From Rhododendron vialii (taxonomy: Eukaryota; Streptophyta; Magnoliopsida; Ericales; Ericaceae): 64,000 nucleotides of DNA. The notes under the pieces were generated by a model. It searched no databases. It was not told where the DNA came from and was given only the letters and a program-made list of their open reading frames with translations. The DNA lies in assembly GCF_030253575.1 (NCBI RefSeq), contig NC_080561.1:9334501-9398500 (forward strand), in the 5' to 3' direction. The translations under genes and the position numbers were made by a program. Positions 15,697 to 55,744 of this stretch are shown here, piece by piece (position 1 is the stretch's first letter; each line of letters begins with the position of its first letter).

Positions 15697-17097
15697 ATGA
15701 GCGTACCAGTGGGTTATAAGTTTACGCCTACAGACCAAGAACTTGTTATCGACTATCTTGAGATCAAGTCCAAGGGTAAAGCCCTACCTTGCGATGTCGT
15801 TTTCGAGCGCGAGATTTACGGGACCGGAAACAAAGCCCCGTGGCAGATTTTCACCAAGAACGACCCGTGGGAAGAAGGCAGCGTCTACGTTCTCACGAAG
15901 CTGATCAAGGCCACCGGCAGCGACAAACGGACAGCTAGAACGGCTGGTTGTGGCTCGTGGCACGGAGAGACCGGTCCTGTACGAATACTCGACAAAAAGC
16001 ATCGTGTGATAGGGTACAAGAGGATGCTGCGTTTTCGGATCAAGAACGGATCGGAAGCGATGGACGAGAGCGGGGAAGGAGGCCGTTGGATCATGCACGA
16101 GTTCTCTTTGTATGGCGGTAATGGTACTACTTCGACTAGGAATAAGCAATCGCCTAAAGGATCAGAATATGTTCTTTGTAGGATAAAGAAAATATATAAC
16201 TCAAAAGACAACAAGAAATCTCCGAAGAAAGTAAAGAATGTTGAGGTCCCGAGGCCTGCAAAGCGTGCGAGGAAGGAGGTGTTTGAGCAAGAACAGGACG
16301 TGGAAGCACTGGAAACAGAAAATATAGTTCCTTACTCGCAAGAACTTTTGGAAGCAGAGAAGGAAGGACATTATTCACAGATACTTTCCGACGTGGATGC
16401 GGATCTTGAACTACTACGTCCTATGCTGGAGTCGGAGCAGCTAGCAAGTATCGGTCCTGATTTTGATGCGTCGGACCCCCGAACCCTATCTTGGCTTCCC
16501 CCAACACCTTTCTCGGAAGAATTTTCAAAAGCGGAGGAGCAAGGAAATTATTCGCAAATGCTTTTTGACATGGATGCGGATCTTGATTTCGATGCATTAG
16601 ACCCTCAAACCCTATCTGGGCATGTCCAAACACCTTCCTCGGAAGAACTTTCAGAAGCGAAGAAGCAAGAAAATTATTCGCAAATGCTTTTTGACATGGA
16701 TGCGGATCTTGATTTTGATGCGTTGGACCCTCAAGCCCTATCTGGGCTTGCCCAAACACCTTTCTCGGAAGAACTTTCGGAAGCGGAGAAGCAAGGAAAT
16801 TATTCACAAATGCTTTCTTCCATGTCGGATGCGGATCTTCATGAGGAGCTAATTTCTATATTGGAGTCAGAGCAGCCACCAAGTAGTATCAGTCTTGATT
16901 CTTGGCTTCCTGGCCCGACAGTGCCAACACCTTTCTTTGAAGAATTTTCAGAAGCGGAGGAGCAAGGAAATTATTCGCAGATGCTTTCTGACGTTGATGC
17001 GGATACTGTAGAACTAGTTCCTATATTGGAGTACTTGGAGCAGCTACCAAGTTTCAGTCTTGATTTTGATGTGTTGAGCAAGGAATGGAGCTTGTAA
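15697..17097 (+). CDS. NAC-C, intact type II NAC transcription factor with acidic C-terminal repeats
   Basis: An intronless frame of 466 codons. The ATG at 15,697 is chosen because MSVPVGYKFTPTDQELV aligns with the usual NAC start; a GTG 24 bases upstream is in frame but unlikely. Residues 4-163 form the NAC domain (A: PVGYKFTPTDQELVIDYL; B: REIYGTGNKAPWQIF; C: GCGSWHGETG; D: VIGYKRMLRF to RWIMHEFSL; E: EYVLCRIKK), which in this family binds CGT-core DNA and dimerises. Residues 172-194 are basic (KKSPKKVK, RPAKRARK), a likely bipartite nuclear signal. Residues about 215-466 hold five copies of an NYSQML-DMDADL-type acidic unit, predicted to activate transcription. Most NAC genes have two introns; none is visible here. 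Target genes are unknown. Confidence 0.9.
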   Translation: MSVPVGYKFTPTDQELVIDYLEIKSKGKALPCDVVFEREIYGTGNKAPWQIFTKNDPWEEGSVYVLTKLIKATGSDKRTARTAGCGSWHGETGPVRILDKKHRVIGYKRMLRFRIKNGSEAMDESGEGGRWIMHEFSLYGGNGTTSTRNKQSPKGSEYVLCRIKKIYNSKDNKKSPKKVKNVEVPRPAKRARKEVFEQEQDVEALETENIVPYSQELLEAEKEGHYSQILSDVDADLELLRPMLESEQLASIGPDFDASDPRTLSWLPPTPFSEEFSKAEEQGNYSQMLFDMDADLDFDALDPQTLSGHVQTPSSEELSEAKKQENYSQMLFDMDADLDFDALDPQALSGLAQTPFSEELSEAEKQGNYSQMLSSMSDADLHEELISILESEQPPSSISLDSWLPGPTVPTPFFEEFSEAEEQGNYSQMLSDVDADTVELVPILEYLEQLPSFSLDFDVLSKEWSL

Positions 17098-17494
17098 GAG
17101 CAAGAGCAAGCGAGTAAAAGGCCCGTTGTTTGTTGTTGGAGGGGAATGAAAAACAAAAGAAATATGAGCAGTAGATATTAGTTTACTAGTAGGTCATTGA
17201 TCGAGCCCATTAGTCATTCATTTATAAGGAATCAATCGAAAACATAATCGTAGTTATGGAATGTTCTTATCAGTTACGATTGTTCTATGCTTTGGAATAT
17301 AGACCTGCTTCTATTTTCCTAATGATTTGCTTCTTTAATTTGCCTATTGGTTTGCTGTTCTATTTGCTTGTTCTTTTGCGCTGTACGTACGTAGCACACA
17401 ATCGCTAAGTACCAAAGGGATATGAGGGAGTCACTCTGTCATTTATTTCTCTCATGGTAGTTTGTGCACATTAGATTTCGCTATTTATCAAATC
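17098..17494 (+). other. NAC-C 3' flank, cut at 17,494
   Basis: Matches the 3' flanks of NAC-D and NAC-F until GATTTCGCTATTTAT, then switches to unrelated sequence. The continuation of the array resumes only at about 33,211, with roughly 735 bp of the expected flank missing. Confidence 0.7.
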
Positions 17495-17659
17495 TTCTTG
17501 GGGAAAAGGACAAAGGGAACACAATGATAAAATCATAAAACCAAATGCCGTGATTTCACACTAATGATGAATCACAACCAGAATCAAAGTTCACTACAGC
17601 TCCCAGTGACTTTGATGAGCCTTATGCTCCTACATCAAGTATGTTTGCACCTAATGCAG

Positions 17660-17921
17660 CAAACTAATGCGCTTCTGAAATGCTATACCACAACAAGCTG
17701 GGCATAGGGACGTATACCCCTTGTTTCTGGATATCCGGGATCTCACTCGAGAAGGGAATTTCAAGCTGGCTTGGGTTAAGATATCCGCCAACAAGGTCGC
17801 TCATCAGGTAGCAGCATTGGCAGGCTGGAAGATAAAGGGAGGCATGCCCCTGATAGTACGTCTTAGTCGCTTGAGCCGTTTTGGCATTTTTGTCTGACAA
17901 AAAAAATAAAAAAAAAGATTC
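17660..17921 (+). pseudogene. LINE RNase H remnant with poly-A end
   Basis: The + strand reads DIRDLTREGNFKLAWVKISA then NKVAHQVAALAGW, fitting the C-terminal motif W-V-x-x-x-A-N-x-V-A-H of plant LINE RNase H domains. A stop and an A-rich tail follow (about 17,897-17,921). The rest of the element is absent (5' truncation). Confidence 0.5.
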
Positions 17922-19127
17922 TGGTTCTTAAGGATGATTGGAGAAGTAAGATAGTCAGAAGAGGAAACTTAATTCCCCGCAAACAGAGATTCCAAAACTG
18001 AGACATAGGATTGAAAATTTCTACCAGCTGGCCGACCAAAATCATCAAGAACATAAATCTACGGAAGGCTGTACAATGAACTAAGCGAGGCAGCCCTGAG
18101 CCTTAAGGTCATTTCTTGGACCATTACATAAAACCATCTCAAGTGTTTAAGAATTGTTCCACGGGATGTAGAGTCTTATTTGGATGCCTAAAATGGCCAA
18201 AATACACAACATCCAACAAGATAATGTGAGTAATTATCAAATTGAGACCCACTGATTTCTTTGGAATGTGACTGCTGAAGTTGTATGATGACTAAATCGA
18301 AGCTCATAATGTTGTATAACGCAGCTTCTGTAGACCAGAAAAGAGACAAGTTCAAACAGAAACCGTGACATCATGGTTTTAATCCAGCCCAATATTTATC
18401 TTAAACTATTTTGTTTTAGAAAAACAAAAGTTAAATTTATACCAAGTAATACTCCATGGCCTGGAAAAAACCATGAAGCATAACGAATGAGGAAAAGATT
18501 TAAATGCACAATAATCAATTTCGATATTTCTTAAAAGACTATAACTACTTGACTTTGCAAAGATAAATCTCTTAAGTACAATTACTTGACTTTCTTTGAT
18601 GACAATCAAGTGTACATAGAAGGCCATAGTCAGAGATTGCACATAAGCAAAGTCAATAAAATTACTAGCGAACAAGAAATAATACCTCATGTTGTTACAT
18701 AGAGCATTCCTATTTCCTCTCTCTGCTTCAAATGTTATCACACTCCTCAAGCATTTATCACTGAAACACTGGGTGAACAAAGGTACCAAGATTAATGTTT
18801 TTAGTTTCCATCAGGCTTTGGTGGTTTAACAGAAAAGCTTAGTTGAAGTTACAGCGGGTGGACCCAGATACTTCAATATGCAGTATACCATACGTATGAA
18901 GATAAAGTACTGATAATGAAATAGATGATTTTCAGTAGTGCAAAATGTGGATACAGTATTTCGATTTAATTTGTCATTATCTTTTATGTCAAGGGTAGCA
19001 TAGTCTTTTTGATTAGGTTTGCTTAGGGTTAACCTATATAGTTCTGTCATAGCCTTGTTTTTTTTCTTTAAGGTGCTCAGCAATAAAACTCCTACACAAG
19101 TATTCTATCTATTGTAACATGGTATCA

Positions 19128-19139
19128 GAGCTCAAGTTG
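19128..19139 (+). mobile_element. LTR-retrotransposon primer-binding-site relic
   Basis: TGGTATCAGAGC, complementary to the 3' end of initiator tRNA-Met, directly follows ATTGTAACA, a plausible LTR end. No gag/pol or second LTR is evident, so this is a degraded remnant whose LTR start cannot be placed. Confidence 0.6.
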
Positions 19140-19304
19140 AAAGTGGTCTTGGGTTCAAGCTCTCCGTTTGCATTTCTTTCGACCTTTATCACCCATATCA
19201 CAGCACATCTACGCAACTCGAAAGAGCTCTAGCATTTTTCTTCCAACTAAAGGCCATGTAGTTATCCAAAGGCTTTGGCCTTTATACTATTGCTTACAAA
19301 CTAT

Positions 19305-19663
19305 GAAGCACCGACACCTCTAGAGGTCGAAGTATCGTTGTGTGGGACACGGCGGGGACACGTATGGGACACGCCATATACATTTTTTAGGGGGACACTG
19401 ATGGGGACACGGTAGGGGCCAAACTGTAATTTTAAAAAAATTGGAGATCAAACTGTAATTTTTTTAAATTTTGGGGCCAAATTGTAATTTTTTAAAAATT
19501 TCTCAGTATCAAACTATAATTAATTATTTAATTATTTAAATAAATAAATAAATACACACACACACACACACATACGTGGCCGTGGCCGTGTCCGAGTCTC
19601 CATTTTTTTAGAATTTCCGTGTCCCCGTGTCAGTGTCGGTGTCGGTATCTGTGTCCGTGCATC
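19305..19663. mobile_element. GACAC-rich MITE-like element with 16-bp flanking repeat
   Basis: The element begins GAAGCACCGACACC and ends with the near-complement GTGTCCGTGC. ATTGCTTACAAACTAT flanks it on the left (19,289-19,304), and a copy with one difference on the right (19,664-19,679). The flanking repeat is long for a DNA transposon. The interior has a CA microsatellite (about 19,556-19,572). Confidence 0.65.
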
Positions 19664-20890
19664 ATTGCTTACAAATTATAGGCATCTAGTGATAAGTCGA
19701 AGCACTTTAACTTATAAGACGTTTCTCTATGAGAATTGAACTATAAATAGGACCTGCTTTTCCAATGCAAGCCACTTGTCCAAATATTGAGGTTGCTTTT
19801 CAGTTTGAGCACTTAATTGCCTAGACAAACTTATCTATGAGTTCACATTACAAAGACAACGAGTGGTGCTAAACTAACTACAAAAGAAAGATGAAGTTGG
19901 ACTTCATTCATAGAAGGTGTTACTATTCCTGCCTTTTCCATTTACATTCCTAGCTTAATAGTTCCTGTTGTTTGCTCTTCAAGAGTGTTTGCGGTCCAAG
20001 TTGAACATCAAGTCTCATATGATGTTCCCAATGACAATAAAATCTTGTCTAAACTAAGTTAAAATACAGTGAACTCCGAAATGCTAATTCTTCAGCCGAC
20101 AACAACCACGTCATTATAATGAGTTCATTCAAGATTACAAAAAATCCGAGTGGGGAGATATATAAAGGATACGACTTAAACTAAAACATATATGTACCAA
20201 GATATAAACATCAATTCTTAGTCAAATTCAACAATCCAACGGGTAAAAATGTCCATAAAACCAGGACATGGTAGAAAAATTGGATATCCAAAAGAAGTAT
20301 GCTTTGCCGCAATATTCATGTTTACTTCCACAAATAAAAAGTAAACCATTGTTTCAACATGTAATTCAAGAAACTACAAATGTGGTATAGAACTCGTTCA
20401 TACCTTGCCACATGCTTGCACAAGTAAGACTGACATTGCCATGTGCTACAAAGTTTTTGTACGGAAGGGCAATGCCTGAAAAATATAAACATCAAACTTG
20501 AAAATTTTGAGTACGGGGAGGGAAGTCTGGTAGGAATTCCTCAGGGCGTATTACGGTTTTTCACCGAGGGGGTGGATCGAAGCGATTGCAGCGAAGAATA
20601 AGATTCTACAATCACATCTACAGTCAAGTAATCATATCCATAAAGAGCCTAAAAAATAAACTTAATCACAGTGATGATGTGCTAATGAATGCAAACTGGT
20701 TACGAATATATAAAACCCTTTTTTGACCCCATAGATCATGCAACCATATATTAATTACGTAAACCAAATATTAAGATAAATCCTTAAAGGCTTTAATTGT
20801 GTTTCTTATGATTAATGATGACATGAAATCAGTTCAAATAGTAATCTTGTACTCTAAAACACCAATGTAAATCAAAATCATGCTACATAT

Positions 20891-21130
20891 TGTTGAGAAT
20901 ATAAATAATAAAGTTGCCCCTCTCTCTAACAGCTTAAGCTTTTAGATGAGTATGTGGTTAACAATCTAATATGGTATCAAAGCAGACAATAGATCCTATG
21001 TTCGAACATCACCGCCTACCTAACGATTAAAATTTACACGTGTTTAGCCCCTTATGGAAGAGAGTCTGGCTACACGTGAAGGGGTGTGTTGAGAATATAA
21101 ATAATAAAGTTGGTGGTTAACAATCTAATA
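20891..21130 (+). mobile_element. TRIM retrotransposon (terminal-repeat in miniature)
   Basis: LTR 1 (20,891-20,971) begins TGTTGAGAATATAAATAATA. It is followed at once by the primer-binding site TGGTATCAAAGC, a short internal part, a purine tract (GAAGGGGTG), and a second, internally deleted LTR copy (21,087-21,130). CATAT/CATAC at the flanks is a likely 5-bp target duplication. No coding region, as usual for TRIMs. Confidence 0.8.
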
Positions 21131-21269
21131 CATACCAATGAGTAGATGGGCAATAAGTCTTTAAGTGTTCATACCCCTTGAATAAGATGAGAGCAACAAT
21201 CAAATTCGACATCTTTAATCATAGGCATTGGATTAAAGTACAAAACTGGTATCGGATCCATTTATAGGA

Positions 21270-21576
21270 GAAAAAAAATAAAGTTGACTCCTGTCTATTG
21301 AAGTAAGAGTGCACTCATGCTTATATTCTTCATATTACTTTGGTACCCAAGCGATGTGGGATTTCGCTTCACACCCTCCCTCACGCCCAACGTGCACACT
21401 CGACAGCACCTGTCACGTGCAGGCCAGGGACACACACCTTACCCATCCTTGGCATACCCGACTCTGATACCATGTTACACCTTCTTGGGTAAAACTCAAC
21501 TCTAAAAGCTAGCTATTTAAGTGAGGGTGCTCTCACGCTTACTTTGGTACCCAAGCGATGTGGGACTTGCTTCACA
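21270..21576 (-). mobile_element. Second TRIM retrotransposon, minus orientation
   Basis: The direct repeats at about 21,270-21,373 and 21,474-21,576 share ACTTTGGTACCCAAGCGATG and TGTGGGA. Between them the reverse complement of the primer-binding site (GACTCTGATACCA, about 21,460-21,473) abuts the right repeat, so the element reads on the minus strand. The left start is approximate. Confidence 0.75.
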
Positions 21577-21991
21577 AATCCATCATTCATCATCCATGAC
21601 TATGACAAGTCCCTTAGAACTTCCAACCAAATTCCAACCCATGATCCAAAATATTGATTTGTGAAGGGAAAAGAGATCAGAAGAGGAAGATTGAGTTTTT
21701 TTCCCAGCGTTCTAATATCCAAATACAACCTCTGGCTATGAAGCACTAACACACCTAAGTTAGTCATTGTATGAGTGTCAAACACGCTAAAAACAGATAT
21801 ACCGGGTACATAGCGAGGAACGCCACGTGGTGTGTCCATTTATTTTAATTAGTTTTCTTTGATTCACACGAGGTGATCTACCTGGGACATGGCAAGACCT
21901 GTATGGGATACTACAAAGTAGAGTATACAATTTAACAAACACTTTGTTTGGTTATGAGTTTTGAGGAAAAAAAATTTGATATAATGAGTGG

Positions 21992-22018
21992 AGAGAGAGA
22001 GAGAGAGAGAGAGAGTGA
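21992..22018. repeat. (GA)n microsatellite
   Basis: About 13 GA dinucleotides inside sequence resembling the left half of a TTTGTTTGG-type MITE (compare 26,632). Confidence 0.85.
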
Positions 22019-22519
22019 GAAATTTATTGAGAACTGTGTAGAGAGTAAACAAAAATTCAAAACTAGTAAGTGAACAAAGTGAAAGCTCTTTTGGGGGTTA
22101 AACTTCAATATTACAAAACTTGGGATAAAACTTTTAAAAGGATATGTACACTTATGATGTAGCCTGAAACCTACTATTTCTTTGTCCTCAAGAACCAAAT
22201 TCCAGTCCTTGGGAAGGATACCCCCCAACCTATACACCAAAGAGTTGATGGTGTAAAATCCAATTTTTGATAACCATCAAAGTCATTCTGTCCAGAAATC
22301 CTCCTACCAATTCAAGAATGTTTTGTTTGTCTTTGTCTCACAGTGATGTGTTTGTTGTGTTAACTGGTATAAGTTTAAGAGGTGGTATTTTTGGTCATGT
22401 TAAAAGATCCCACTTTTGGTTGGGAAGTTTAAGTGAATGTTTCTCCCAAATGAAACAACTTAACATCATGAAGAAAAATAGATGGAAAATCCAAGGGGAC
22501 GATAGATAGAAATTCCAGC

Positions 22520-22640
22520 AGGTGAGTTTAGGACACCTCCTGAAAAAATTGGAGACATTCAATTCTCCGTCTATGAATGCAAAGCTGGGATGTGGAAGAG
22601 AGGTCTGGTCATCAAAGGCATTGCCATTCAGCCAAAAGCC
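22520..22640 (+). pseudogene. Exon-like stretch, family not recognised
   Basis: The + strand reads EFRTPPEKIGDIQFSVYECK then AGMWKRGLVIKGIAIQPKA and a stop. The composition is protein-like and not repetitive, and an AG precedes it. No family is recognised. It could be a captured exon, since other gene fragments lie nearby, or chance. Confidence 0.25.
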
Positions 22641-25604: not shown

Positions 25605-25726
25605 CTAAATATAAAGGCGAAAAAGGGGGAGAGATACAGGGAGAGAGAATATTACATAAACTACCCTCCCATACATTATATATAGCAAAATCTAAGACAT
25701 GTTGCTCCTATAGTCCTATGTATATA

Positions 25727-35402: not shown

Positions 35403-35559
35403 TTTTTTTTGATCGGCAAAAGATGAATTTTATTAAAAAACGGGGAAAGGGGAAGGGAATCCAACAAACAGTTGGATAATACACCACAAGGAAAAGCCCA
35501 TAACATCCAAAGGTCGACCAAGGTCCACATCAAATAATATAATAAAGCTCAACCCAACA
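35403..35559 (-). mobile_element. Truncated copy of the upstream retroelement, fused to TNL-2
   Basis: Same retroelement as 288-629 and 46,623-46,954, but cut at CCCAACA (35,553-35,559), where TNL sequence starts. See the deletion-junction finding. Confidence 0.85.
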
Positions 35560-37162
35560 AAAAATGAAGCAATGTGGAGGAATAATTTCCTGTCGCGATC
35601 ATCTTGTAAGGACATAAAGCTAATTGCCAGTGTTTATAGGATCTGATTTCCAGTGAATGATTCCATTTCTTCCAATGAAGTCTCCCATTCCTCTGCACTT
35701 CTATCACGGAGAGAAGAACCCAACAGTTTAAGAGCATGAGGGAGTCCTTTGCACTGTTGGAGTACACTTTTTGAGTACTCCATGAAACCTTCAATAGGAT
35801 GTGCTTGTCTAAAGGCATGCCAACTGAAGAGCCGCAGTGACTCATTATAATCAATTTCCTTAACCTTAAAGGTCTCGTCAACTTTATATGGTTTCAGCAG
35901 TTTCTCATAACGCGTTGTTATAATAACCTTACTTCCTGGACAAAACCAGTCTCGCATTCCAAGTACTGCATTCAATTGATCCAGTTGATCCACATTGTCA
36001 AGAACAACGAGAACCCTTCTGTAACTTACTGCATTTTTAATCTTAATGCCAATTTTTAGTTTTCCACACCTCGAAATATCTGAAAGTAGTTGTTCTTGTA
36101 AATGTACTAAACCATTGGGCTGTTTAGAAGTCTCTCTAATATCATAAAGAAAGCTACTGCATTCAAACCTGTCAAAATTTGAGTTATAGACAGTTTTGGC
36201 AATGGTTGTCTTCCCTATTCCACCAATCCCGGCGAACACCCCAATGCCAGCATCAGTTGCCCCATTTTGTAACCAATAATTTATGCTCTCAACTCGAGAA
36301 TCAATTCCAATCTGGTATTGGGTAACACCCAAGACCCCTACGATTTAGTTTGTTCGAGATCTCTTTGATAATTTCCTGGATGAACTTCGATTCATGCCTA
36401 CAGATTTTGATCAACAAAACAAAAAACAAAAGAGCAGAGTAAGAATTTCATGTTTCTTACAAACACATGGAAAGGGAAACTATCAAGAAAACTACCAGCC
36501 GCTAGAACAATATTTCTAGACTGATTTCGATCTCTTTTCTAATTAACATGTATCCTGTTTCTGTCAGAATCTTTATGTAAATACTGCAAAACTATGTGTG
36601 GGCAACATCTGAATGAAATTACGGGCACATACAGCCCAATGGTGCCTTATAAAGAATTCCGGGACATTTACCCATCAGATTGATTTTGCAAGACCATCCC
36701 TCTTAATTTTGCAACTTCCCTAAGACCTGCTCTCCACCTCTCCACGTTTTCCATCAAATCCTTTCCCTTCCATCTGTTGCTGAAATGAATTGTTCTTCAT
36801 GATTAGCAAACGCTTCTCCGAAACTCCCAGTCTGCTTCCCAACTTCAGATGGGTCCACATTGTAGTACACCGGCAATATTCTGTGTCCAACTGCCTTCCA
36901 GCGTTGGAGAACATCTAGAAGTTCATCAAGGTAGGCACCGTCCCGAAGAAGCATAGCCTTTCGAGAAGACAATTACTGAAACACTGGATTCTTCGGTGGC
37001 TCGTTGACATTCTGACTGCATATTGTGCCCTCTCTCAATTCCATCATCTGCTCGACAAGTGTGAATTCCAGAGCGAACCAGCGCTGTATAAAGGTGATCT
37101 GAAAAGTTGATACTAGTGTCATCGCTGGAGCTTAAGAACACCTGGTAAGTACACTGACACAT
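35560..37162 (-). pseudogene. TNL-2, TIR-NBS pseudogene truncated by a deletion
   Basis: TIR start at 37,162 (YQVFLSSSDDTSINFSDHLY, TALVRSGIHTC). A 4-bp insertion (TAGG, near 36,930) shifts frame before the CLDEL catalytic region, which reads on in another frame (VDPSEVGKQTGSF). The NB-ARC exon is the best preserved of the three: about 232 codons (36,332-35,634) with GIGGIGKTT, FLYDIRETS, RRVLVVLDNVD, GSKVIITTR and CKGLPHALKLLGSSL, lacking about 15 bases after KIG. It ends at the TAA shared by all three copies. ARC2 beyond LHIASFFVG and all LRRs are gone. Confidence 0.85.
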
Positions 37163-37880
37163 GGAAGAGGAGGTTTTTTTGTGTCCTCATAGCAGTTACT
37201 GGACAAATATCTGGAAGAAAATGCAATTTCTGTTCAGTTGAAAGGACACTAGGCTTGTAGTTTCACTTATTTGGATAGCTAAAGAAAGATATAAGTAATG
37301 GTGGAAAAAAGATGGAAAATAAACAAAAGGACGAATCTTTATCGGGTCCAGTTTGTTTCTCACCAAATCTCATCACTTTTAGCAAGACTTGGTATGAAAC
37401 TACAACCCTTTCTCTTCTCTTCCTTTCTCACAAGCAAAAGCCAGTGGACGGAAGCAAAAAAAGCATAAACTGAGCATAACACAAACTAGCACAAATGTGA
37501 AACAGAAAAGAAGACGACGATCAACAACAAGAAGTAGCGAGATTGCGAAAATTACCCGACCGATCAATCGGAACCCTAATTGGCTATGCTCTGTTATCGA
37601 CTGGGAAAAAAACTTGTAGGACTGCCACTCTTGGATTATGCATCTTCTAGGTTTAACCATGGAGTAATTCAGGGAGGAGTTGAACTGAACACTCTTTAAC
37701 CGTAATTCCAAACAAAATAATTTTTCCTTTCCGCGCTTCCAAACACGGTAATTTGTTTGCAATTATGAAAGATGTTACAAGATAACGAAGCAAATAATAA
37801 AATCTAAAAAGTATGATATTCCAATATTTATTTAAATCTTTGTTTTTTATCTAATGAAGTAACTCTCCATGTTCCTAATA

Positions 37881-37882
<2 letters not shown>
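37163..37882. other. TNL-2 upstream region
   Basis: Nearly identical to 52,312-53,030. A 120-codon open frame on the minus strand (37,400-37,762) is shared with 52,548-52,910, but has no recognisable domain and lies where a TNL promoter/5' leader is expected, so I do not call it a gene. Confidence 0.5.

Positions 37883-37919
<37 letters not shown>
37883..37919. repeat. (CT)n microsatellite
   Basis: Shorter allele of the spacer CT tract seen at 6,690-6,765. Confidence 0.9.
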
Positions 37920-37921
<2 letters not shown>

Positions 37922-38132
37922 GAAAAAATAAAAAAATAAAAAAATTAGAAAATTAGGGATGATTAATTAGAAAATTAGAAGCTGATCCTCTTTTTTAGGA
38001 TTGGTTTGATGCCAACCCTAAATATTATTTTCGAACCTAAATAGGCTCGGATATATTGTGTAATGACTTTTATAGCCCGTTCCAACTAAAACTGATCTCC
38101 AGAACCCAATAAATCACTCCCCATCAAAAATC

Positions 38133-38849: not shown

Positions 38850-40610
38850 TGGAGAGAAAGTTATCGTGTTTGTTGTGAATTTTATTTGTGTGTGTATTTT
38901 TTATGAGAAATGTATATTTTTCTATGAGAATTGTGTATTTTCTTTGAGAATTGTATATTTTTCTATGAGAACTGTGTATTTTTTATGAGAATTGTGTGTT
39001 TTAGCGTGTAGTATAACTATGTGAACTGTGTATTTTCTATGAGAACTGTCTATAAGAACTATGTATTTTCCATAAAAACTGTGTATTTTCTATAATAATT
39101 GTGTATTTTCTACGAAAACTGTCTATGAAAATTGTGTAGTTTTCTATGAGAATTGTGTGTTTTTTTATAAGAATTGTGATTTTCTCTATTTTCTTTTCTT
39201 TTAAATATTTTATTTTTCAGCCTTACTTTTTTATTGTTACTACTACACTTGGTTAGATTTTAGTTGAGTGCTACGAATTTGTTTAATTTTTGTTCAATTT
39301 TTTGGTACTTTGAAAATTTGTTCAATTTTTGTTCATGTGTGTATTTTCTATGAGAACTGTGTTTTTTCCTATGAGAATTATGTATTTTCTATGACATTTG
39401 TGTATTTGTCCATGAGAACTGTCGATAAGAACTATGTATTTTCCATGAAAACAGTGCATTTTCTATAAGAATTGTATATTTTATGCGAAGGCTGTCTATG
39501 AGAATTGTGTATTTTAGATGAGAACTGTGTATTTTCTACGGGAACATTGTATTTTTCTATGAGAACTGTCTATAAGAACTGTGTATTTTTCTATGAGAAC
39601 TGTGCATTTTTTATGAGAACTGTGTATGAGTCCATGACAACTATCTATGAGAACTGTATATTTTCTATGAGAATTGAGTATTGTCCATGAAAACTGTGTA
39701 TTTTTTATTACAACTACATATTTTCTATAATAACTGTGTATTTTAGTATGTGATGAGGCTATTTGAACTGTGTATTTTTCAATTCACATAATCATTTCAC
39801 ATAGTTCTCATAGAACTGAAAATGAGAATTGACTATGAGAATTGTCAATTCTCATAATCAGTTCACATATCTAATGGTATTTTTGTTTGAAACAGTTCTC
39901 ATAAAAACAGTTCTCATAGGGACAGTTCTCATAGAAATAGTGTGTGGTATAACTATGTGAACTATATATTTTCTATGAGAACTGTGCCTAGTTCTCATAG
40001 ACACAGTTCTCATAGTAAACCTAGACCTTAGAGGGGGAAAGTGGCAATCCTCCTAAACTATGACGACTTATGTGTAAATGTAATGCTTAAAAATGGCTTT
40101 TGCATTAGCCTAATTTGATTAAACTAATAGAAAATTAGAGGCCGGTCCTCTAATTATACATGAGAATTGCGAAACTGTGTAAATTATGAGGCCGGTCCTC
40201 TAAAGTAGCTTTTGCATTGGCCTAACTTGATTAAACTATGATAACTGTGTATTATATATGAGAACTGTGTATTTTTCACGGGAACATTGTATTTTTCTAT
40301 GAGAACTATGTATTTTTCTAAGAGAACTGTGTATTTTTTATGAGAACTGTGTATTGTCCATGATAACTATCTACGAGAACTGTGTATTTTCTATGAGAAT
40401 TGAGTATTGTCTATGAGAACTGTGTATTTTCTATGACAACTACGTAGTTTCTATAAGAACTGTGTATTTTAGTGTGTAGTGAGACTATTTGAACTATGTA
40501 TTTTTTAGTTTACATAGCCAGTTCACAGAGTCAAAGGTATTTTTGTCCGAAACAGTTCTCATAGAGACAATTCTCATAAAAACAGTTCTCATAGAAAATT
40601 CTCATAGCAA
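38850..40610. repeat. Degenerate ~20-bp minisatellite, partly inverted
   Basis: Dozens of diverged copies of a unit close to TATGAGAACTGTGTATTTTC. Two runs on the plus strand (about 38,880-39,170 and 39,330-39,790) are followed by a run of the complementary form (ACAGTTCTCATAGA, about 39,790-40,020), then another plus run (about 40,235-40,490) and another complementary run (about 40,505-40,610). Short open frames here are repeat artefacts. Confidence 0.9.
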
Positions 40611-42008: not shown

Positions 42009-42126
42009 CTATATATATCCTATCACATTACCTGGACTAACAACATGAGATCAGAGAGAGAGAGAGCCAAAGATTAGAGAGAGAGGAGAGAGAGAGAGGA
42101 GAGTGGTGAGAGATCAAGAACAAGAC
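42009..42126 (+). promoter_or_regulatory. NAC-D core promoter and leader
   Basis: TATA box CTATATATATCC at 42,009-42,020, then a GA-rich leader to the ATG at 42,127. Confidence 0.65.
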
Positions 42127-43422
42127 ATGAGCGTACCAGTGGGTTATAAGTTTACGCCTACAGACCAAGAACTTGTTATCGACTATCTTGAGAGCAAGTC
42201 CAAGGGTAAAGCCCTACCTTGCGATGTCGTTTTCGAGCGCGAGATTTACGGGACCGGAAACAAAGCCCCGTGGCAGATTTTCACCAGGAACGACCCGTGG
42301 GAAGAAGGCAGCGTCTACGTTCTCACGAAGCTGATCAAGGCCACCGGTAGCGACAAACGGACAGCTAGAACAGCCGGTTGTGGCTCGTGGCACGGAGAGA
42401 CCGGTCCTGTACGAATACTCGACAAAAAGCGTCGTGTGATAGGGTACAAGAGGATGCTGCGTTTTCGGATCAAGAACGGATCGGGAGCGATGGACGAGAG
42501 CGGGGAAGGAGGCCGTTGGATCATGCACGAGTTCTCTTTGTATGGCGGTAATGGTACTACTTCGACTAGGAATAAGCAATCGCCTAAAGGATCAGAATAT
42601 GTTCTTTGTAGGATAAAGAAAATATATAACTCAAAAGACAACAAGAAATCTCCGAAGAAAGTAAAGAATGTTGAGGTCCCGAGGCCTGCAAAGCGTGCGA
42701 GGAAGGAGGTGTTTGAGCAAGAACAGAAGGTGGAAGCACTGGAAACAGAAAATATAGTTCCTTACTCGCAAGAACTTTTGGAAGCGGAGAAGGAAGGACA
42801 TTATTCACAGATACTTTCCGACGCGGATGCGGATCTTGAACAACTACGTCCTATGCTGGAGTCGGAGCAGCTAGCAATAAGTATCGGTCCTGATTTTGAT
42901 GCGTCGGACCCCCGAACCCTATCTTGGCTTCCCCCAATTCCTTTCTCGGAAGAATTTTCAGAAGCGGAGGAGCAAGGAAATTATTCGCAAATGCTTTTTG
43001 ACATGGATGCGGATCTTGATTTCGATGCGCTAGACCCTCAAGCCCTATCTGGGCTTGTCCAAACACCTTCCTCGGAAGAACTTTCAGAAGCGAAGAAGCA
43101 AGAAAATTATTCGCAAATGCTTTTTGACATGGATGCGGATCTTGATTTTGATGTGTTGGACCCTCAAGCCCTATCTGGACTTGCCCAAACACCTTTCTCA
43201 GAAGAACTTTCGGAAGCAGAGAAGCAAGGAAATTATTCACAAATGCTTTCTTCCATGTCGGATGCGGATCTTCATGAGGAACTAGTTTCTATATTGGAGT
43301 CAGAGCAGCTACCAAGTAGTATCGGTCTTGATTCTTGGCTTCCCGGCCTGACAGTGCCAACACCTTTCTTTGAAGAATTTTCAGAAAACAGAATCGATCG
43401 AAAACAGAATCGAGCCCACTAG
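42127..43422 (+). CDS. NAC-D, type II NAC factor with altered C terminus
   Basis: 431 codons, intronless. NAC domain (residues about 4-163) and basic segment as in NAC-C, with only a few substitutions from NAC-F. Four acidic repeats remain. After FFEEFSE the frame runs into what is 3' flank in the paralogues: the last repeat is deleted and the protein ends ENRIDRKQNRAH. AATCGATCGAAAACAGAATC occurs twice nearby (about 43,389 and 43,439), so slippage or repeat-mediated deletion is likely. DNA binding should be unaffected; the fifth repeat and the EWSL end are lost. The ATG is chosen by alignment with NAC-C. Confidence 0.85.
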   Translation: MSVPVGYKFTPTDQELVIDYLESKSKGKALPCDVVFEREIYGTGNKAPWQIFTRNDPWEEGSVYVLTKLIKATGSDKRTARTAGCGSWHGETGPVRILDKKRRVIGYKRMLRFRIKNGSGAMDESGEGGRWIMHEFSLYGGNGTTSTRNKQSPKGSEYVLCRIKKIYNSKDNKKSPKKVKNVEVPRPAKRARKEVFEQEQKVEALETENIVPYSQELLEAEKEGHYSQILSDADADLEQLRPMLESEQLAISIGPDFDASDPRTLSWLPPIPFSEEFSEAEEQGNYSQMLFDMDADLDFDALDPQALSGLVQTPSSEELSEAKKQENYSQMLFDMDADLDFDVLDPQALSGLAQTPFSEELSEAEKQGNYSQMLSSMSDADLHEELVSILESEQLPSSIGLDSWLPGLTVPTPFFEEFSENRIDRKQNRAH

Positions 43423-44715: not shown

Positions 44716-44724
44716 TTGTTTCTT

Positions 44725-47700: not shown

Positions 47701-47704
47701 TTGT

Positions 47705-47823: not shown

Positions 47824-48996
47824 ATGAGCGTACCATTGGGATATAAGTTTACGCCTACAGACCAAGAACTTGTTATCGACTATCTTGAGAGCAAGTCCAA
47901 GGGTAAAGCCTTGCCTTGCGACGTCATTTTCGAGCATGAGATTTACGGGACTGGAAACAAAGCTCCGTGGCAGATTTTCATCGAAAACGACCCGTGGACA
48001 GAAAGCAGCGTCTACGTTCTCTCCAAGTTGATCAAGGCCAAAGGCAACGACAAACGGATAGCTAGAATGGCCGACTGTGGCTCGTGGCACAGAGAGACCG
48101 GTCCTGAACCAATATACGATGAACAGACCGATCCTAAACTGATAGGGTACAAGAGGACGACGTGTTTTCGGACCACGGACGAATCAGGAGCGATGGAAAA
48201 AGGCCGTTGAATCATGCATGAGTTCGAACAATGGCCTAAAGGAGAATATGTCCTTTGTAGGATAAAAAGAAAATACGACTCAAAAGACACCAAGATATTT
48301 CCGAGGAAAATAAAGTGCACCAAGAAATCTACGGGGAGAGCAGAGAAAGTTGAGGCGGCTGCTGGTGCTTGTGATGCTGATGTTATGCTCTGAAAACCCG
48401 CAAAGCGTACTAGGAAGGAGTCTGAGGAAGAACAAAAGATGGAAGCACCAGAAACAGAAACTGTTTCTTACTCGCGAGAACTTTCGGAGGCGGAGAAGGA
48501 AGAAAATCATTCGTGGATGCTTTCCGACATGGATGCAGATCTTGAAGAACAAGTTCCTATGTTGGAGTAGCTACGAAGTTTCGGTCTTGATTTTGATGTG
48601 TCAGTCCCTCAAATCCTATCTTGGCTTTCCCTGACACCTTTCTCTGAAGAATTTTCGGAAGCGGAGAAGCAAGAAAACTATTCACAAATGCTTCTTGACA
48701 TGGATGCGGATCTTGAAGAACAAGTTCCTATATTGAAGTCGGAGTAGCTAACAAGTTTTGGTTTTGATTTTGATGCCTTGGACCCTCATACCCTATCCGA
48801 GCTTGCCCCAACACCTTTCTTAGAAGATATTTTGGAAGTGGAGAGACAGGGAAATAACTCGCAAAGGCTTTCGGACATGGATGCGGATCTTGAAGAACTA
48901 GTTTCCATATTGCAGTGGGAGCCGCTACCAAGTTTCGATCTCGATTTTGATGCGTTGGGCCCTCAAGTTGTGGCTGATAAATGTTTCCTTGTTTGA
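47824..48996 (+). pseudogene. NAC-E, type I NAC pseudogene with four nonsense codons and no frameshift
   Basis: From the ATG (47,824) to the final stop (48,994-48,996) one frame of 391 codons is kept with no net indel. It is interrupted by TGA at 48,208-48,210 (TGG in paralogues, in RWIMHEF), TGA at 48,391-48,393 (TGG), TAG at 48,568-48,570 (CAG) and TAG at 48,745-48,747 (CAG). The NAC subdomains are recognisable (PLGYKFTPTDQELV, EYVLCRIK). The first 128 codons could still make a truncated NAC domain. The C-terminal repeats are of the EEQVPMLE type, as in NAC-A. Confidence 0.9.
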
Positions 48997-49177
48997 TTTG
49001 TTAGTTTTGCATTTCTTTCGCAAGTTGATATCGTTGGAATCCCAAAGCATGAGTTCTCTTTGTGAGACTGTGTTTATATCAAAAGTTAACAGTCCCGTAT
49101 TTGATTTTTATTTACGTATTGATATTTTTACAGTCCATAAAAATGTATAGTGAACGTGATAGTGTGCGTATTTAACA

Positions 49178-49259
49178 ATGAGTTTTCTTCGAGTTGTTGA
49201 GAGCTCATTTTTTGTTTTGGAAAAAAAAAAGAGCTCTCAACAGCTCGAAGAAAACTCAT
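49178..49259. repeat. 29-bp inverted repeat (hairpin), second copy
   Basis: Arms 49,178-49,206 and 49,231-49,259, complementary except for one C/T difference that would form G-U in RNA. Confidence 0.85.
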
Positions 49260-49589
49260 CGAGAGCTCATTTCGTGGGAGCACATCCCTTGATAGCATCC
49301 CAAGCTTGATGTAACTCTGGTTTTTCCTCTGCCCAATAAGGCGTACCAAGAGTGTGCGCGAGGAAGACACATTATATGTGGATGCTATGCTAGACCAGAT
49401 GCTAATTCTAATAAGAAATATTGACAATTCTCAACCTGCATTACTCAATTTTGGCTTCTTGATATGATTTTGATTAAACAGGATTTTGAAAACAACTAGC
49501 TTGATGGCGGCATCCCTTCAACGCTAGCACTAGCCTCATATTCGTTTCGACACAGAGACTCATTGACATGTTATTTTGTTTCTTAATGG

Positions 49590-49848
49590 TAGATTCTCAA
49601 TCTTCAGATTGAGTCTCACATTGGCAGCGTAAATGATCTGGCCTTTGCAATTCCGCGTAATAAACTTCTGGTTGTTACCTGTGGAGATGGAAAAACGATT
49701 AAGGCAACTTTCGACGCCCGACTCTCCTATAGTTATATTGTTTCCAATCCAGCATTATACCCTATCCGTATCCATAGCCGTAGATGTTGGTATGGCTCTC
49801 CTGTTTTTTCTGTTTGCCTTCATGTCAGGGAAAACATTCTTGTAACGG
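49590..49848 (+). pseudogene. TOPLESS-like WD40 fragment (TPL-5)
   Basis: Nearly identical to TPL-1: IESHIGSVNDLAFA, NKLLVVTCGDGKTIK, HGSPVFSVCLHVREN. Not cut by CACTA, as in unit 1. Confidence 0.6.
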
Positions 49849-50292
49849 AAAGATGAAATTATGGACATATCACTTCGTAATTTTGTTACAATTTGATCTC
49901 CACAAATGGACAATCGGTTCTACATAGTAACTATTGCATTCGTTGATTTTAAATTTCTGAAACCGTATGGCACTCCCATGATTCGTTTCGATTAGTAGAA
50001 TGGCACGGTATTGGCTTCATCAACGAAAAACTATCAGTCGTCGCAAGCTCATAAAACTCCTTGATTTATTGTCGTAACTTAGGTCAGTTCAGTAATCATG
50101 CCAAGGGGATCTAAACCAAATTCCTGTTGAACCATTCAATGGATTTCCAGATAGAATATGCTTTTGTAGTCACAAATCCGCCCTATCTCTAACATTGGTA
50201 GCTGACATGGAAGATTTAGCTTTCCTCAATATACACATATTGAAGATGAGGCCTTGAACCCTTTCTGTACCCTAGTAGCGCATAAAGAATTG

Positions 50293-52311
50293 TCAGGTAA
50301 AAAGCATGCAAACATAATTACAGAAGCACATACACACAAATAAGAAAGCTAGTGTTTCTTTTATCTCTTCTTTTGAGGGTGCAATAGGAAGGATCTTTCT
50401 TACAGTTTTGTTACTCAATACATGGAAAGCATCCTCACGATCCCACACTATGCTACGTCTCCCAAGCTCATTGGGTGTCTCTTGGTGTACAATTCTTCTT
50501 CCCAGGCTCATTGGGTGACTCTTTGTGTACAATTCTTCTAGCCATGTCGCGGAGCAGTTGATCCATAATCAACTTATTCCCTTCTCCAATTGTTATGAGG
50601 CCTCTATCCACAAGGTTTTCAATTCCAACTGTTGTATAGAAATTACATTCATCCAACATTTTGACCACATATTCCTTGTCCTTCCCAACAAAAAATGAAG
50701 CAATGTGGAGGAATAATTTCCTGTCGTGATCATCTTGTAAGGACATAAAGCTAATTGCCAGTGTTTATAGGATCTGATTTCCAGTGAATGATTCCATTTC
50801 TTCCAATGAAGTCTCTTATTCCTCTGCACTTCTATCACGGAGAGAAGAACCCAACAGTTTAAGAGCATGAGGGAGTCCTTTGCACTGTCGGAGTACACTT
50901 TTTGAGTACTCCATGAAACCTTCAATAGGATGTGCTTGTCTAAAGGCATGCCAACTGAAGAGCCGCAGTGACTCATTATAATCAATTTCTTTAACCTTAA
51001 AGGTCTGGTCAACTTTATATGGTTTCAGCAGTTTCTCATAACGCTTTGTTATAATAACCTTACTTCCTGGACAAAAGCAGTCTCGCATTCCAAGTACTGC
51101 ATTCAAGTGATCCAGTTGATCCACATTGTCAAGAACAACGAGAACCCTTCTGTAACTTACTGCATTTTTAATCTTAATCATTCCTTCATCAACACTGCCA
51201 ATTTTTAGTTTTCCACACCTCGAAATATCTGAAAGTAGTTGTTCTTGTAAATGTACCAAACCATTGGGCTGTTTAGAAGTCTCTCTAATATCATAAAGAA
51301 AGCTAATGCATTCAAACTTGTCAAAATTTGAGTTATAGACAGTTTTGGCAATGGTTGTCTTCCCTATTCCACCAATCCCGGCGAACACCCCAATGCTAGC
51401 ATCAGTTGCCCCATTTTGTAACCAATAATTTATGCTCTCAACTCGAGAATCAATTCCAATCTGATATTGGGTAACACCTAAGACCCCTACGATTTAGTTT
51501 GTTCGAGATCTCTTTGATAATTTCCTGGATGAACTTCGATTCATGCCTACAGATTTTGATCAACAAAACAAAAAACAAAAGAGCAGAGTAAGAATTTCAT
51601 GTTTCTTACAAACACATGGAAAGGGAAACTATCAAGAAAGCTACCAGCCGCTAGAACAATATTTCTAGACTGATTTCGATCTCTTTTCTAATTAACATGT
51701 ATCCTGTTCCTGTCAGAATCTTTATGTAAATACTGCAAAACTATGTGTGGGCAACATCTGAATGAAATTACGGGCACATACAGCCCAATGGTGCCTTATA
51801 AAGAATTCCGGGACATTTACCCATCAGATTGATTTTGCAAGACCATCCCTCTTAATTTTGCAACTTCCCTAAGACATGCTCTCCACCTCTCCACGTTTTC
51901 CATCAAATCCTTTCCCTTCCATCTGTTGCTGAAATGAATTGTTCTTCATGATTAGCAAACGCTTCTCCGAAACTCCCAGTCTGCTTCCCAACTTCAGATG
52001 GATCCACATTGTAGTACACCGGCAATATTCTGTGTCCAACTGCCTTCCAGCGTTGGAGAACATCTAGAAGTTCATCAAGGTAGGCACCGTCCCGAAGAAG
52101 CATAGCCTTTCGAGAAGACAATTACTGAAACACTGGATTCTTCGGTGGCTCGTTGACATTCTGACTGCATATTGTGCCCTCTCTCAATTCCATCATCTGC
52201 TCGACAAGTGTGAATTCCAGAGCGAACCAGCGCTGTATAAAGGTGATCTGAAAAGTTGATACTAGTGTCATCGCTGGAGCTTAAGAACACCTGGTAAGTA
52301 CACTGACACAT
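50293..52311 (-). pseudogene. TNL-3, TIR-NBS(-LRR) pseudogene
   Basis: The most complete TNL copy. TIR start at 52,311, with the same 4-bp TAGG insertion as TNL-2 near 52,080. NB-ARC from about 51,486, with GIGGIGKTT, KIGSVDEGM, RRVLVVLDNVD, GSKVIITKR and GLPHALKLLGSSL. Stop TAA near 50,830 where TNL-2 has TGG, and the shared TAA after GNQIL. Then ARC2-like LFLHIASFFVGKDKEYVVKM and LIMDQLLRDMARRIV, where the usual M-H-D-type motif is MDQ. A 40-bp tandem duplication at 50,461-50,540 shifts frame. No LRR follows. Confidence 0.85.
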
Positions 52312-53645
52312 GGAAGAGGAGGTTTTTTTGTGTCCTCATAGCAGTTACTGGACAAATATCTGGAAGAAATGCAATTTCTGTTCAGTTGAAAGGGCACTAG
52401 GCTTGTAGTTTCACTTATTTGGATAGCTAAAGAAAGATATAAGTAATGGTGGAAAAAAGATGGAAAATAAACAAAAGGACGAATCTTTATCGGGTCCAGT
52501 TTGTTTCTCACCAAATCTCATCACTTTTAGCAAGACTTGGTATGAAACTACAACCCTTTCTCTTCTCTTCCTTTCTCACAAGCAAAAGCCAGTGGACGGA
52601 AGCAAAAAAAGCATAAACTGAGCATAACACAAACTAGCACAAATGTGAAACAGAAAAGAAGACGACGATCAACAACAAGAAGTAGCGAGATTGCGAAAAT
52701 TACCCGACCGATCAATCGGAACCCTAATTGGCTATGCTCTGTTATCGACTGGGAAAAAAACCTGTAGGACTGCCACTCTTGGATTATGCATCTTCTAGGT
52801 TTAACCATGGAGTAATTCAGGGAGGAGTTGAACTGAACACTCTTTAACCGTAATTCCAAACAAAATAATTTTTCCTTTCCGCGTTTCCAAACACGGTAAT
52901 TTGTTTGCAATTATGAAAGATGTTACAAGATGACGAAGCAAATAATAAAATCTAAAAAGTATGATATTCCAATATTTATTTAAATCTTTGTTTTTTATCT
53001 AATGAAGTAACTCTCCATGTTCCTATTACATCTCTCTCTCTCTCTCTCCCTCTCTCTCTCTCTCTCAATGAAAAAATAAAAAAATTAGAAAATTAGGGAT
53101 GATTAATACTCCTCATATAAAACTAAATCGCTTTTGTATTTGCTTGCTTAAAAATGAATGTGTACATTTGTCTTGCGTACATTAAGTTTTTGAAAATAAT
53201 ACCTTTATTTCCGGCTGCTGCTTTTGTCACTTCATTTTTTTGTTAACGCCACTCCTCTGCAAATGTATTTTTGATGCAAAATAACCTTGCAGAGGAGTGG
53301 CGTTAACAAAAAAGGGAGTGACAAAATCATTTCCCTTATTTCCATGCCTTCCGATTACTTTATTGCGTTTCAAAAGAAAAAATTATACTAAACGGGTATT
53401 GTGGATTACTTCTTTTTTTTTTTTTATCCTTATTCGAATTTTTTTTTTTTTTTGCATTTGTTAGCATTGTTCAATCCATGCCTTCCGATTGACAGCAATT
53501 CATTTGCAAAAAGTGTTTCAATATTCATGAAACAAGCACAGAGTTTGTAAACGGGGTATTCCTAATTAAGTTCAAAATGTATATTGAAAATTTAAATTCT
53601 TTACCATTGAACGAATAATATCCACAATTATTGATTGGTGGTTAT
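52312..53645. other. TNL-3 upstream region, CT tract and spacer
   Basis: Nearly identical to 37,163-37,967 plus 40,938-41,433 without the MULE. Contains the interrupted CT microsatellite (53,031-53,067) and the palindromic MITE (about 53,225-53,330). No gene seen. Confidence 0.6.
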
Positions 53646-54218
53646 TGACGGGAGTGGAAATCCACTAGTTTCCACCACCCTCACAAAATTTAGAAAAAAT
53701 ATTTAGCGGTCTTGAAACATCGTCACGTGAGGTTCTGTCATACATGTTTGCGTGGGGCTCAGTAGTACAAAGTATATTGACTCCACAAAAACGTGTGATG
53801 AATTAGGGTGTTGCGACGCTGCACGACCACTGCATAATTGCTCCACAATTTAACCCAACATCACCGACTGGTCCGTTAATTCCAAATAAATAACCCAAAG
53901 TCACGTTTTTGGTTTCGATTAGGAAATACATACTTTGTACTACTCAACCATCCCAAATTACTTTTCCTTTGCAAAAAGTCAACGGAATTTTTGGATCGAA
54001 AAATAAAATATTTTCATGGAAATTTTTTAGAATTTTTTTACACCAAATTAAAGAACAAATCAAGCACTTTATATTGATGCAAAGAAATTCAAAAAATGAT
54101 ACACGACGTATTTTTTTTCCGAGAAATTACAATTCTTTTCGTAGGGAACAAGTAACCGCGGACGGAGATAGTACACTACTACTCTAGTAAGTACATACAT
54201 AGCCGACTTTCTATTGTC

Positions 54219-54340
54219 CTATATATATCCTATCACATTACCTGGACTAACAACGTGAGATCAGAGAGAGAGAGAGCCAAAGATTAGAGAGAGAGGAGAG
54301 AGAGAGAGAGAGTAGAGTGGTGAGAGATCAAGAACAAAAC
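54219..54340 (+). promoter_or_regulatory. NAC-F core promoter and leader
   Basis: TATA box CTATATATATCC at 54,219-54,230, GA-rich leader, ATG at 54,341. Confidence 0.65.
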
Positions 54341-55744
54341 ATGAGCGTACCAGTGGGTTATAAGTTTACGCCTACAGACCAAGAACTTGTTCTCGACTAT
54401 CTTGAGAGCAAGTCCAAGGGTAAAGCCCTGCCTTGCGATGTCGTTTTCGAGCGCGAGATTTACGGGACCGGAAACAAAGCCCCGTGGCAGATTTTCACCA
54501 AGAACGACCCGTGGGAAGAAGGCAGCGTCTACGTTCTCACGAAGCTGATCAATGCCACCGGTAGCGACAAACGGACAGCTAGAACAGCCGGTTGTGGCTC
54601 GTGGCACGGAGAGACCGGTCCTGTACGAATACTCGACAAAAAGCGTCGTGTGATTGGGTACAAGAGGATGCTGCGTTTTCGGATCAAGAACGGATCGGGA
54701 GCGATGGACGAGAGCGGGGAAGGAGGCCGTTGGATCATGCACGAGTTCTCTTTGTATGGCGGTAATGGTACTACTTCGACTAGGAATAAGCAATCGCCTA
54801 AAGGATCAGAATATGTTCTTTGTAGGATAAAGAAAATATATAACTCAAAAGACAACAAGAAATCTCCGAAGAAAGTAAAGAATGTTGAGGTCCCGAGGCC
54901 TGCAAAGCGTGCGAGGAAGGAGGTGTTTGAGCAAGAACAGAAGGTGGAAGCACTGGAAACAGAAAATATAGTTCCTTACTCGCAAGAACTTTTTGAAGCG
55001 GAGAAGGAAGGACATTATTCACAGATACTTTCCGACGTGGATGCGGATCTTGAACAACTACGTCCTATGCTGGAATCGGAGCAGCTAGCAATAAGTATCG
55101 GTCCTGATTTTGATGCGTCGGACCCCCGAACCCTATCTTGGCTTCCCCCAATTCCTTTCTCGGAAGAATTTTCAGAAGCGGAGGAGCAAGGAAATTATTC
55201 GCAAATGCTTTTTGACATGGATGCGGATCTTGATTTCGATGCGCTAGACCCTCAAGCCCTATCTGGGCTTGTCCAAACACCTTCCTCGGAAGAACTTTCA
55301 GAAGCGAAGAAGCAAGAAAATTATTCGCAAATGCTTTTTGACATGGATGCGGATCTTGATTTTGATGTGTTGGACCCTCAAGCCCTATCTGGACTTGCCC
55401 AAACACCTTTCTCGGAAGAACTTTCGGAAGCGGAAAAGCAAGGAAATTATTCACAAATGCTTTCTTCCATGTCGGATGCGGATCTTCATGAGGAACTAGT
55501 TTCTATATTGGAGTCAGAGCAGCTACCAAGTAGTATCGGTCTTGATTCTTGGCTTCCCGGCCCGACAGTGCCAACACCTTTCTTTGAAGAATTTTCAGAC
55601 GCGGAGGAGCAAGGAATTTATTCGCAGATGCTTTCTAACGTTGATGCGGATACTGTAGAACTAGTTCCTATATTGGAGTACTTGGAGCAGCTACCAAGTT
55701 TCAGTCTTGATTTTGATGCGTTGAGCGAGGAATGGAGCTTGTAA
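54341..55744 (+). CDS. NAC-F, intact type II NAC transcription factor with acidic C-terminal repeats
   Basis: 467 codons, intronless, start chosen as for NAC-C. NAC domain (residues about 4-163) with PVGYKFTPTDQELVLDYL, GTGNKAPWQIF, GCGSWHGETG, VIGYKRMLRF, RWIMHEFSL and EYVLCRIKK; basic stretch at about 172-194 (KKSPKKVK, RPAKRARK). Five acidic repeats follow (YSQML, DMDADLDFDALD), ending SEEWSL. It differs from NAC-C by one inserted residue (LAISIG) and scattered substitutions, and from NAC-D mainly in keeping the last repeat. Likely a nuclear transcriptional activator; targets unknown. The 5' leader and promoter are shared with NAC-C and NAC-D, so expression could be similar. Confidence 0.9.
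   Translation: MSVPVGYKFTPTDQELVLDYLESKSKGKALPCDVVFEREIYGTGNKAPWQIFTKNDPWEEGSVYVLTKLINATGSDKRTARTAGCGSWHGETGPVRILDKKRRVIGYKRMLRFRIKNGSGAMDESGEGGRWIMHEFSLYGGNGTTSTRNKQSPKGSEYVLCRIKKIYNSKDNKKSPKKVKNVEVPRPAKRARKEVFEQEQKVEALETENIVPYSQELFEAEKEGHYSQILSDVDADLEQLRPMLESEQLAISIGPDFDASDPRTLSWLPPIPFSEEFSEAEEQGNYSQMLFDMDADLDFDALDPQALSGLVQTPSSEELSEAKKQENYSQMLFDMDADLDFDVLDPQALSGLAQTPFSEELSEAEKQGNYSQMLSSMSDADLHEELVSILESEQLPSSIGLDSWLPGPTVPTPFFEEFSDAEEQGIYSQMLSNVDADTVELVPILEYLEQLPSFSLDFDALSEEWSL

Follow-up and report, generated by a model that had tools for sequence, protein, structure and literature searches.

The window analyzed here, a 64,000-nucleotide stretch of the Rhododendron vialii genome (GCF_030253575.1, contig NC_080561.1, positions 9,334,501 to 9,398,500 of the forward strand), contains NAC-type genes whose C-terminal tails are built from tandem units, raising the question of what such a tail does. 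Seven NAC-type genes or remnants (NAC-A to NAC-G), all on the plus strand, form a cluster spanning position 1444 to approximately 60781; an earlier note on this DNA had quoted the range 15697..55744, which lies inside the cluster but does not cover it. NAC-C, NAC-D, and NAC-F are uninterrupted single open frames with tandem tails. The reading that we favor, with moderate confidence, is that these three genes encode NAC-type transcription factors with a C-terminal tandem acidic/hydrophobic array, which would most likely be a multivalent acidic activation domain.

NAC Domains and Tandem Tails of the Open Genes

The Pfam NAM domain (PF02365), a mark of the NAC family, was detected in NAC-C, NAC-D, and NAC-F with scores of 78.7, 80.1, and 80.1 bits (E values 2e-22 to 7e-22; curated cutoff, 27 bits), and the domain is diverged in all three proteins. 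When the N-terminal 174 residues were compared with PDB sequences, the top matches were the NAC domains 3ulx, 1ut4, 3swm, and 7xlj; the matched proteins include SNAC1 (3ulx, E value 5.6e-13), ANAC019, and ANAC092. Two additional matches to rubisco (E values 0.27 and 0.31) were taken as chance. The three proteins resemble SNAC1 and ANAC019 in having an N-terminal NAM domain and a variable C-terminal regulatory region (PMC7147800; the papers cited here are referred to for the parts available to us). Unlike in SNAC1/ANAC019-type factors, no intron interrupts the frame. A basic KRARK patch at residue 189, common to the three proteins, may serve as a nuclear signal. The net charge of the NAC domains is +10 to +12, opposite in sign to that of the tails, which is -50 in NAC-C (255 residues), -39 in NAC-D (220 residues), and -53 in NAC-F (256 residues). 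We infer nuclear location, DNA binding, activation, and coactivator contact for these proteins.

Tandem Repeats Finder, run unprompted, reported arrays with a 126-bp period in NAC-C, NAC-D, and NAC-F with scores of 578, 550, and 557 (threshold, 50). The units measured 59, 42, 42, 57, and 54 residues in NAC-C and 60, 42, 42, 57, and 54 residues in NAC-F; NAC-D has units of 60, 42, 42, and 57 residues and a stub of unit 5. The tandem C-terminal repeats that the earlier note had seen in these genes were therefore confirmed, with five units in NAC-C and NAC-F and four plus a stub in NAC-D. Units start with the pattern [FSY][SF]xE and are centered on YSQML as the note had stated, with YSQML or YSQIL in all 14 complete units of the open genes, but the 37-57 residues given there for the unit need correction to 42-60. 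Long units (54-60 residues) and short units (42 residues) were distinguished. In the open genes, the motif DMDADLDFD was confined to the two short units of each gene, where it was followed by ALDP (four of six units) or VLDP (two of six). Across the seven gene copies, 31 units were placed (11 in type I and 20 in type II copies), with boundaries set by hand; the automatic start pattern skipped B1 (units are designated by gene letter and position) and split some other starts. In the protein table of 28 in-frame units, compiled without the frame-broken B3, B5, and G3, the S of YSQ, L, and three D residues were invariant.

Acidic Composition of the Tails

The tails were scored with the composition rule of Kotha and Staller for activation domains, which combines acidic residues with W/F/Y/L (equation 1 as printed: 39-residue tiles, charge <= -9, W+F+Y+L >= 7, and a diagonal bound; PMC10550315). 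Positive tiles numbered 24 of 428 in NAC-C, 23 of 393 in NAC-D, and 35 of 429 in NAC-F; none started at or before residue 200, and they merged into four stretches in NAC-C and three each in NAC-D and NAC-F. Shuffling of the whole proteins gave means of 3.7, 1.3, and 4.0 positive tiles, respectively, and 7 of 13,524 tiles were positive in 679 stop-to-stop frames of the window outside the NAC genes, which are mostly noncoding and form a soft control. The acidic and hydrophobic character proposed earlier for the tails is upheld by these counts, far above those of the control frames; the proposed alternation of acidic and bulky hydrophobic residues is visible in the sequence, but the rule does not need it.

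In the mechanism that we propose, the F, L, M, and Y residues set among D and E in each module would be held exposed by the acidic residues for weak, repeated contacts with coactivators, for example, Mediator, and the tail would act as a multivalent acidic activation domain. Like the acidic activation domains described in PMC10550315, the tails satisfy equation 1 in net charge and in W+F+Y+L counts; unlike the domains in the available part of that source, they consist of natural tandem copies, and their activity is predicted from sequence. Regulatory regions of NAC factors commonly have acidic residues around hydrophobic or aromatic ones (PMC7767404), so an acidic NAC tail is ordinary, and it is the tandem form that stands out.

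Several results weigh against this reading. The composition rule was derived from human factors. Shuffling of the tails alone gave means of 41.7, 20.5, and 52.3 positive tiles, and 864, 407, and 826 of 1000 shuffles reached at least the observed count (NAC-C, NAC-D, and NAC-F, respectively). No excess over tail shuffles was found for residue arrangement in the three proteins, indicating that residue order adds nothing and that the call reflects composition. An AlphaFold model of NAC-F, computed from six sequences of the window, of which three are fragments, was not usable, with a mean predicted local distance difference test score of 33.4 and a predicted template modeling score of 0.20. A charge-hydropathy test also placed the NAC domain on the disordered side and therefore did not discriminate. 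At residue 88, NAC-C, NAC-D, and NAC-F have WHGETG where SNAC1 and ANAC019 have WKATG in the alignment, and the WKATG-type motif, the other family mark examined, is absent from all three. The WKATG-type motif contacts DNA. With WHGETG in its place, the proteins might not bind DNA in the usual way, and the claim of canonical DNA binding, but not that of homology, is lowered. Moreover, NAC-A, NAC-B, NAC-E, and NAC-G (four of the seven copies) are each interrupted by stops, frameshifts, or both. When the first units of type I (A1, E1, and G1) were compared with those of type II (B1, C1, D1, and F1), the ratio of replacement to silent substitution rates (dN/dS) was 0.72-1.25, with no significant value, indicating little constraint. 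Taken together, the acidic-activator reading is reasonable but rests on composition. The repeat tail of NAC-F had no PDB sequence match up to an E value of 10.

History and Surroundings of the Gene Copies

Short units made up 9 of the 20 type II units and none of the 11 type I units, and they aligned to long units with one 51-bp block absent. Joining DADL to LDFD by loss of this block yields the DMDADLDFDALDP of the short unit. The type I sequence DADLEEQVPMLE had been described as a diverged version, a description that did not hold: the short unit with DMDADLDFDALDP is most simply read as a long unit minus 51 bp, with the type I form being the fuller one. The breakpoint was ambiguous over 6 nt (TCTTGA) in A2, A3, and G2; 4 nt were shared in E2, where the second TCTTGA copy is altered, and 3 nt in C1, D1, and F1. 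In B1, which has an extra codon, the best 51-bp fit fell at another place. Because long units are present in both types, a deletion is favored, and a 51-bp insertion would be less economical as an alternative; on the other side, an ambiguity of at least 5 nt occurred at 34 of 928 random 51-bp positions. The charge per 39 residues was -10.2 in the second-position short units D2, F2, and B2 and -8.4 in C2. The third-position units C3, D3, and F3 (-7.4) were no denser than the long type I units (-6.2 to -8.6); the fusion therefore clearly raises acidity in some units only.

A tree built from the DNA of all 31 units grouped them by position across genes, with support values of 100/99 for B1/C1/D1/F1, 97/92 for C2/D2/F2, 85/83 for B4/C3/D3/F3, 100/100 for B5/C4/D4/F4, and 100/100 for B6/C5/F5. 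The first units of both types clustered together (99/97); the deep branches were weak, and 12 of 26 inner branches were well supported. Grouping by position indicates that the array predates the gene copies and is not being homogenized inside genes, and concerted evolution within genes was rejected on this ground. The earlier note had held that copy number varies between paralogs through unequal exchange. Copy number does vary in NAC-D, NAC-B, and NAC-E, whereas NAC-C and NAC-F share the same five-unit layout. For the open genes, this common layout and the positional grouping speak against unequal exchange, as does the shortening of NAC-D by a terminal deletion, in which the gene lost its stop codon together with the greater part of unit 5 and sequence farther downstream. 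Among the broken copies, NAC-B has one short unit more and NAC-E one long unit fewer, indicating that unit gain or loss occurred in the cluster.

We order these steps as follows. A long-unit array was present before types I and II diverged. In the type II line, a stretch of 51 bp flanked by TCTTGA copies was most likely deleted from one unit, which fused DADL and LDFD into a dense acidic core, and the resulting short unit was then duplicated. Later, whole genes were copied along with neighboring resistance-gene remnants. The copied segments that include the genes are large; 2285-5995 and 48477-52185, for instance, are alike at 96.5%.

Other features of the copies and their surroundings were also recorded (Table 1). 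Type I NAC domains (NAC-G at 59737-59811 and also NAC-A) contain a 10-residue tandem duplication, TGPEPIYDQQ-like, with a 30-bp period; it lies directly after the WHGETG stretch, in the domain part expected at the DNA, and type II copies have none. NAC-B has AGG at the start position, where the other copies have ATG. NAC-C, NAC-D, and NAC-F have in common a TATATATAT stretch and a run rich in GA, both lying no more than about 130 bp upstream of the ATG; GA-dinucleotide runs lie directly upstream of the NAC starts in most copies (1355-1414, 15619-15673, 42053-42103, and 54263-54317). Minisatellite-like arrays of about 20 bp (CTATGAGAACTGTGTATTTT) occupy 38891-40607, just upstream of NAC-D, and self-comparison found none at the matching place before NAC-F. 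Fragments of TIR-NB-ARC resistance genes lie between the NAC genes on the minus strand; among the 10 frames scanned, five had no match at an E value of 0.01, and one had a subthreshold match. Three copies of the TIR-NB-ARC fragment (4111-5995, 35553-37967, and 50684-53107) are 96-98% alike and were copied with the NAC genes. No Rfam match was found within the window.

Table 1. Positions of the NAC-type genes, repeat arrays, and resistance-gene fragments in the window
Feature	Position	Strand	Description
NAC-A	1444..2783	+	Type I; four long units; frameshift after NAC domain, stop in unit 2
NAC-B	9497..11101	+	Broken type II copy; six units including three short; stops, frameshifts
NAC-C	15697..17097	+	Uninterrupted frame of 466 aa; five units; KRARK at aa 189; NAM domain spanning aa 4-138
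NAC-C array	16333..17094	+	Long 16333-16509, short 16510-16635, short 16636-16761, long variant 16762-16932, terminal 16933-17094
NAC-D	42127..43422	+	Open frame, 431 aa; tail truncated within unit 5
NAC-D array	42763..43386	+	Long 42763-42942, short 42943-43068, short 43069-43194, long variant 43195-43365, unit 5 stub
NAC-E	47824..48969	+	Type I; three long units, with several stops in frame
NAC-F	54341..55744	+	Uninterrupted frame of 467 aa; five units; KRARK at aa 189; NAM domain spanning aa 4-138
NAC-F array	54977..55741	+	Long 54977-55156, short 55157-55282, short 55283-55408, long variant 55409-55579, terminal 55580-55741
NAC-G	59462..60781	+	Type I; four long units; interrupted by frameshifts and stops
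Roq1-type winged helix	4111-4578	-	
TIR	5720-5995	-	
NB-ARC	35637-36344 and 50819-51493	-	

Alternative Readings and Meaning of the Tandem Tail

The tails also contain SQ sites, six each in NAC-C and NAC-F and five in NAC-D, all C-terminal to the NAC domain, with the first at residue 214 and a maximum of three per 100 residues; each unit has one, and unit 1 has two. SOG1 is a NAC factor with five C-terminal SQ sites, phosphorylation by ATM, and a graded output (PMC7767404, PMC9026448). By analogy with SOG1, which was compared by its described features, the array could be mainly a phosphorylation counter, in which ATM/ATR-type kinases would act on SQ after DNA damage or stress and activity would rise with the number of phosphorylated units; we consider this unlikely. 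It fits the position of YSQ next to the acidic core of each unit, the presence of S in all 28 aligned units and of Q in 23 of them, and the retention of Y, S, and Q in all 18 type II units examined (B3 and B5 excluded; the codons before YSQ are shifted by one in the B1 row), in which S and Q showed silent changes only (TCG in 11 and TCA in 7 units; CAA in 11 and CAG in 7). At least the observed SQ number was reached by 32, 77, and 39 of 2000 tail shuffles in NAC-C, NAC-D, and NAC-F, a count that overstates the excess because SQ sites in units of shared ancestry cannot be treated as independent. When every SQ serine was scored as -2, the positive tiles rose to 89, 70, and 90, respectively. However, type I copies keep Q in 5 of the 10 units examined (5 of 11 with G3, in which Q is a stop). 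In SOG1, moreover, about 40 residues precede the NAC domain as an N-terminal extension, whereas the Pfam match starts at residue 4 in NAC-C, NAC-D, and NAC-F, and their SQ sites are distributed by repeat unit. A combined reading seems to us quite unlikely: one unit would join the kinase site YSQ to the acidic core, so that unit number would set both activation strength and phosphorylation steps, as an independently arisen SOG1-like or p53-like dial made denser by the 51-bp in-frame loss.

It is likewise improbable that the cluster is simply decaying, its copies having spread with the resistance-gene neighborhood and the open NAC-C, NAC-D, and NAC-F being recent survivors without present function. 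The four broken copies, the last unit already lost from NAC-D, the adjoining resistance genes present only as fragments, and the diverged WHGETG agree with decay. Constraint on the open copies and the frames of 466-467 residues still open in NAC-C and NAC-F argue against it: the whole-gene dN/dS was 0.40 for C-D, 0.43 for C-F, and 0.28 for D-F (Fisher p = 0.021, 0.022, and 0.032), although the three pairs are not independent. For the repeats alone, the silent/replacement changes were 9/11, 9/15, and 4/3 in the same order, which are small counts; dN/dS of short units was computed only through the pair D2-D3. We regard it as very unlikely that the tail instead recruits a noncoactivator, such as SUMO through the VSILESE/VPILEYL-like stretches of the long units, or serves as a repressor or as a decoy for other NAC proteins. 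In favor of this reading, SUMO-interaction motif (SIM)-like stretches occur at residues 387 and 442 of NAC-F, 386 and 441 of NAC-C, and 387 of NAC-D; NAC domains dimerize, and the one here is diverged. But the SIM pattern is short and also occurs twice within each NAC domain, and no such stretch is present in the short units, which account for 6 of the 14 units of the open genes. The repressor motifs LxLxL, DLNxxP, and [RK]LFGV were searched in NAC-C, NAC-D, and NAC-F, and none was found.

A search for relatives of NAC-F gave 24 pattern matches in prokaryotic genome contigs, none upheld by tblastn, and none in viral contigs; both results say little about plants. Six peptides of these proteins were not found in the literature searched (mostly open access, with few subscription papers and preprints), and no NAC tandem-repeat activation domain is described in this partial coverage. 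The tail of tandem units is also a form absent from the descriptions of NAC factors in the available part of PMC7147800. Compared with the literature searched, the tandem-repeat acidic NAC tail thus appears to be new, whereas the acidic NAC tail itself is known.

If the tail is an activation domain, as we favor, the cluster would provide a natural series in which a single kind of module, long or short, is present once to several times next to a common DNA-binding domain. The relationship of module number and density to transcription strength in plants would then be directly measurable, and the series could show whether activation domains can become stronger when two half-motifs are joined by an in-frame loss. 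Should the SQ sites be in use, these genes would represent a second NAC lineage with phosphorylation-graded output.

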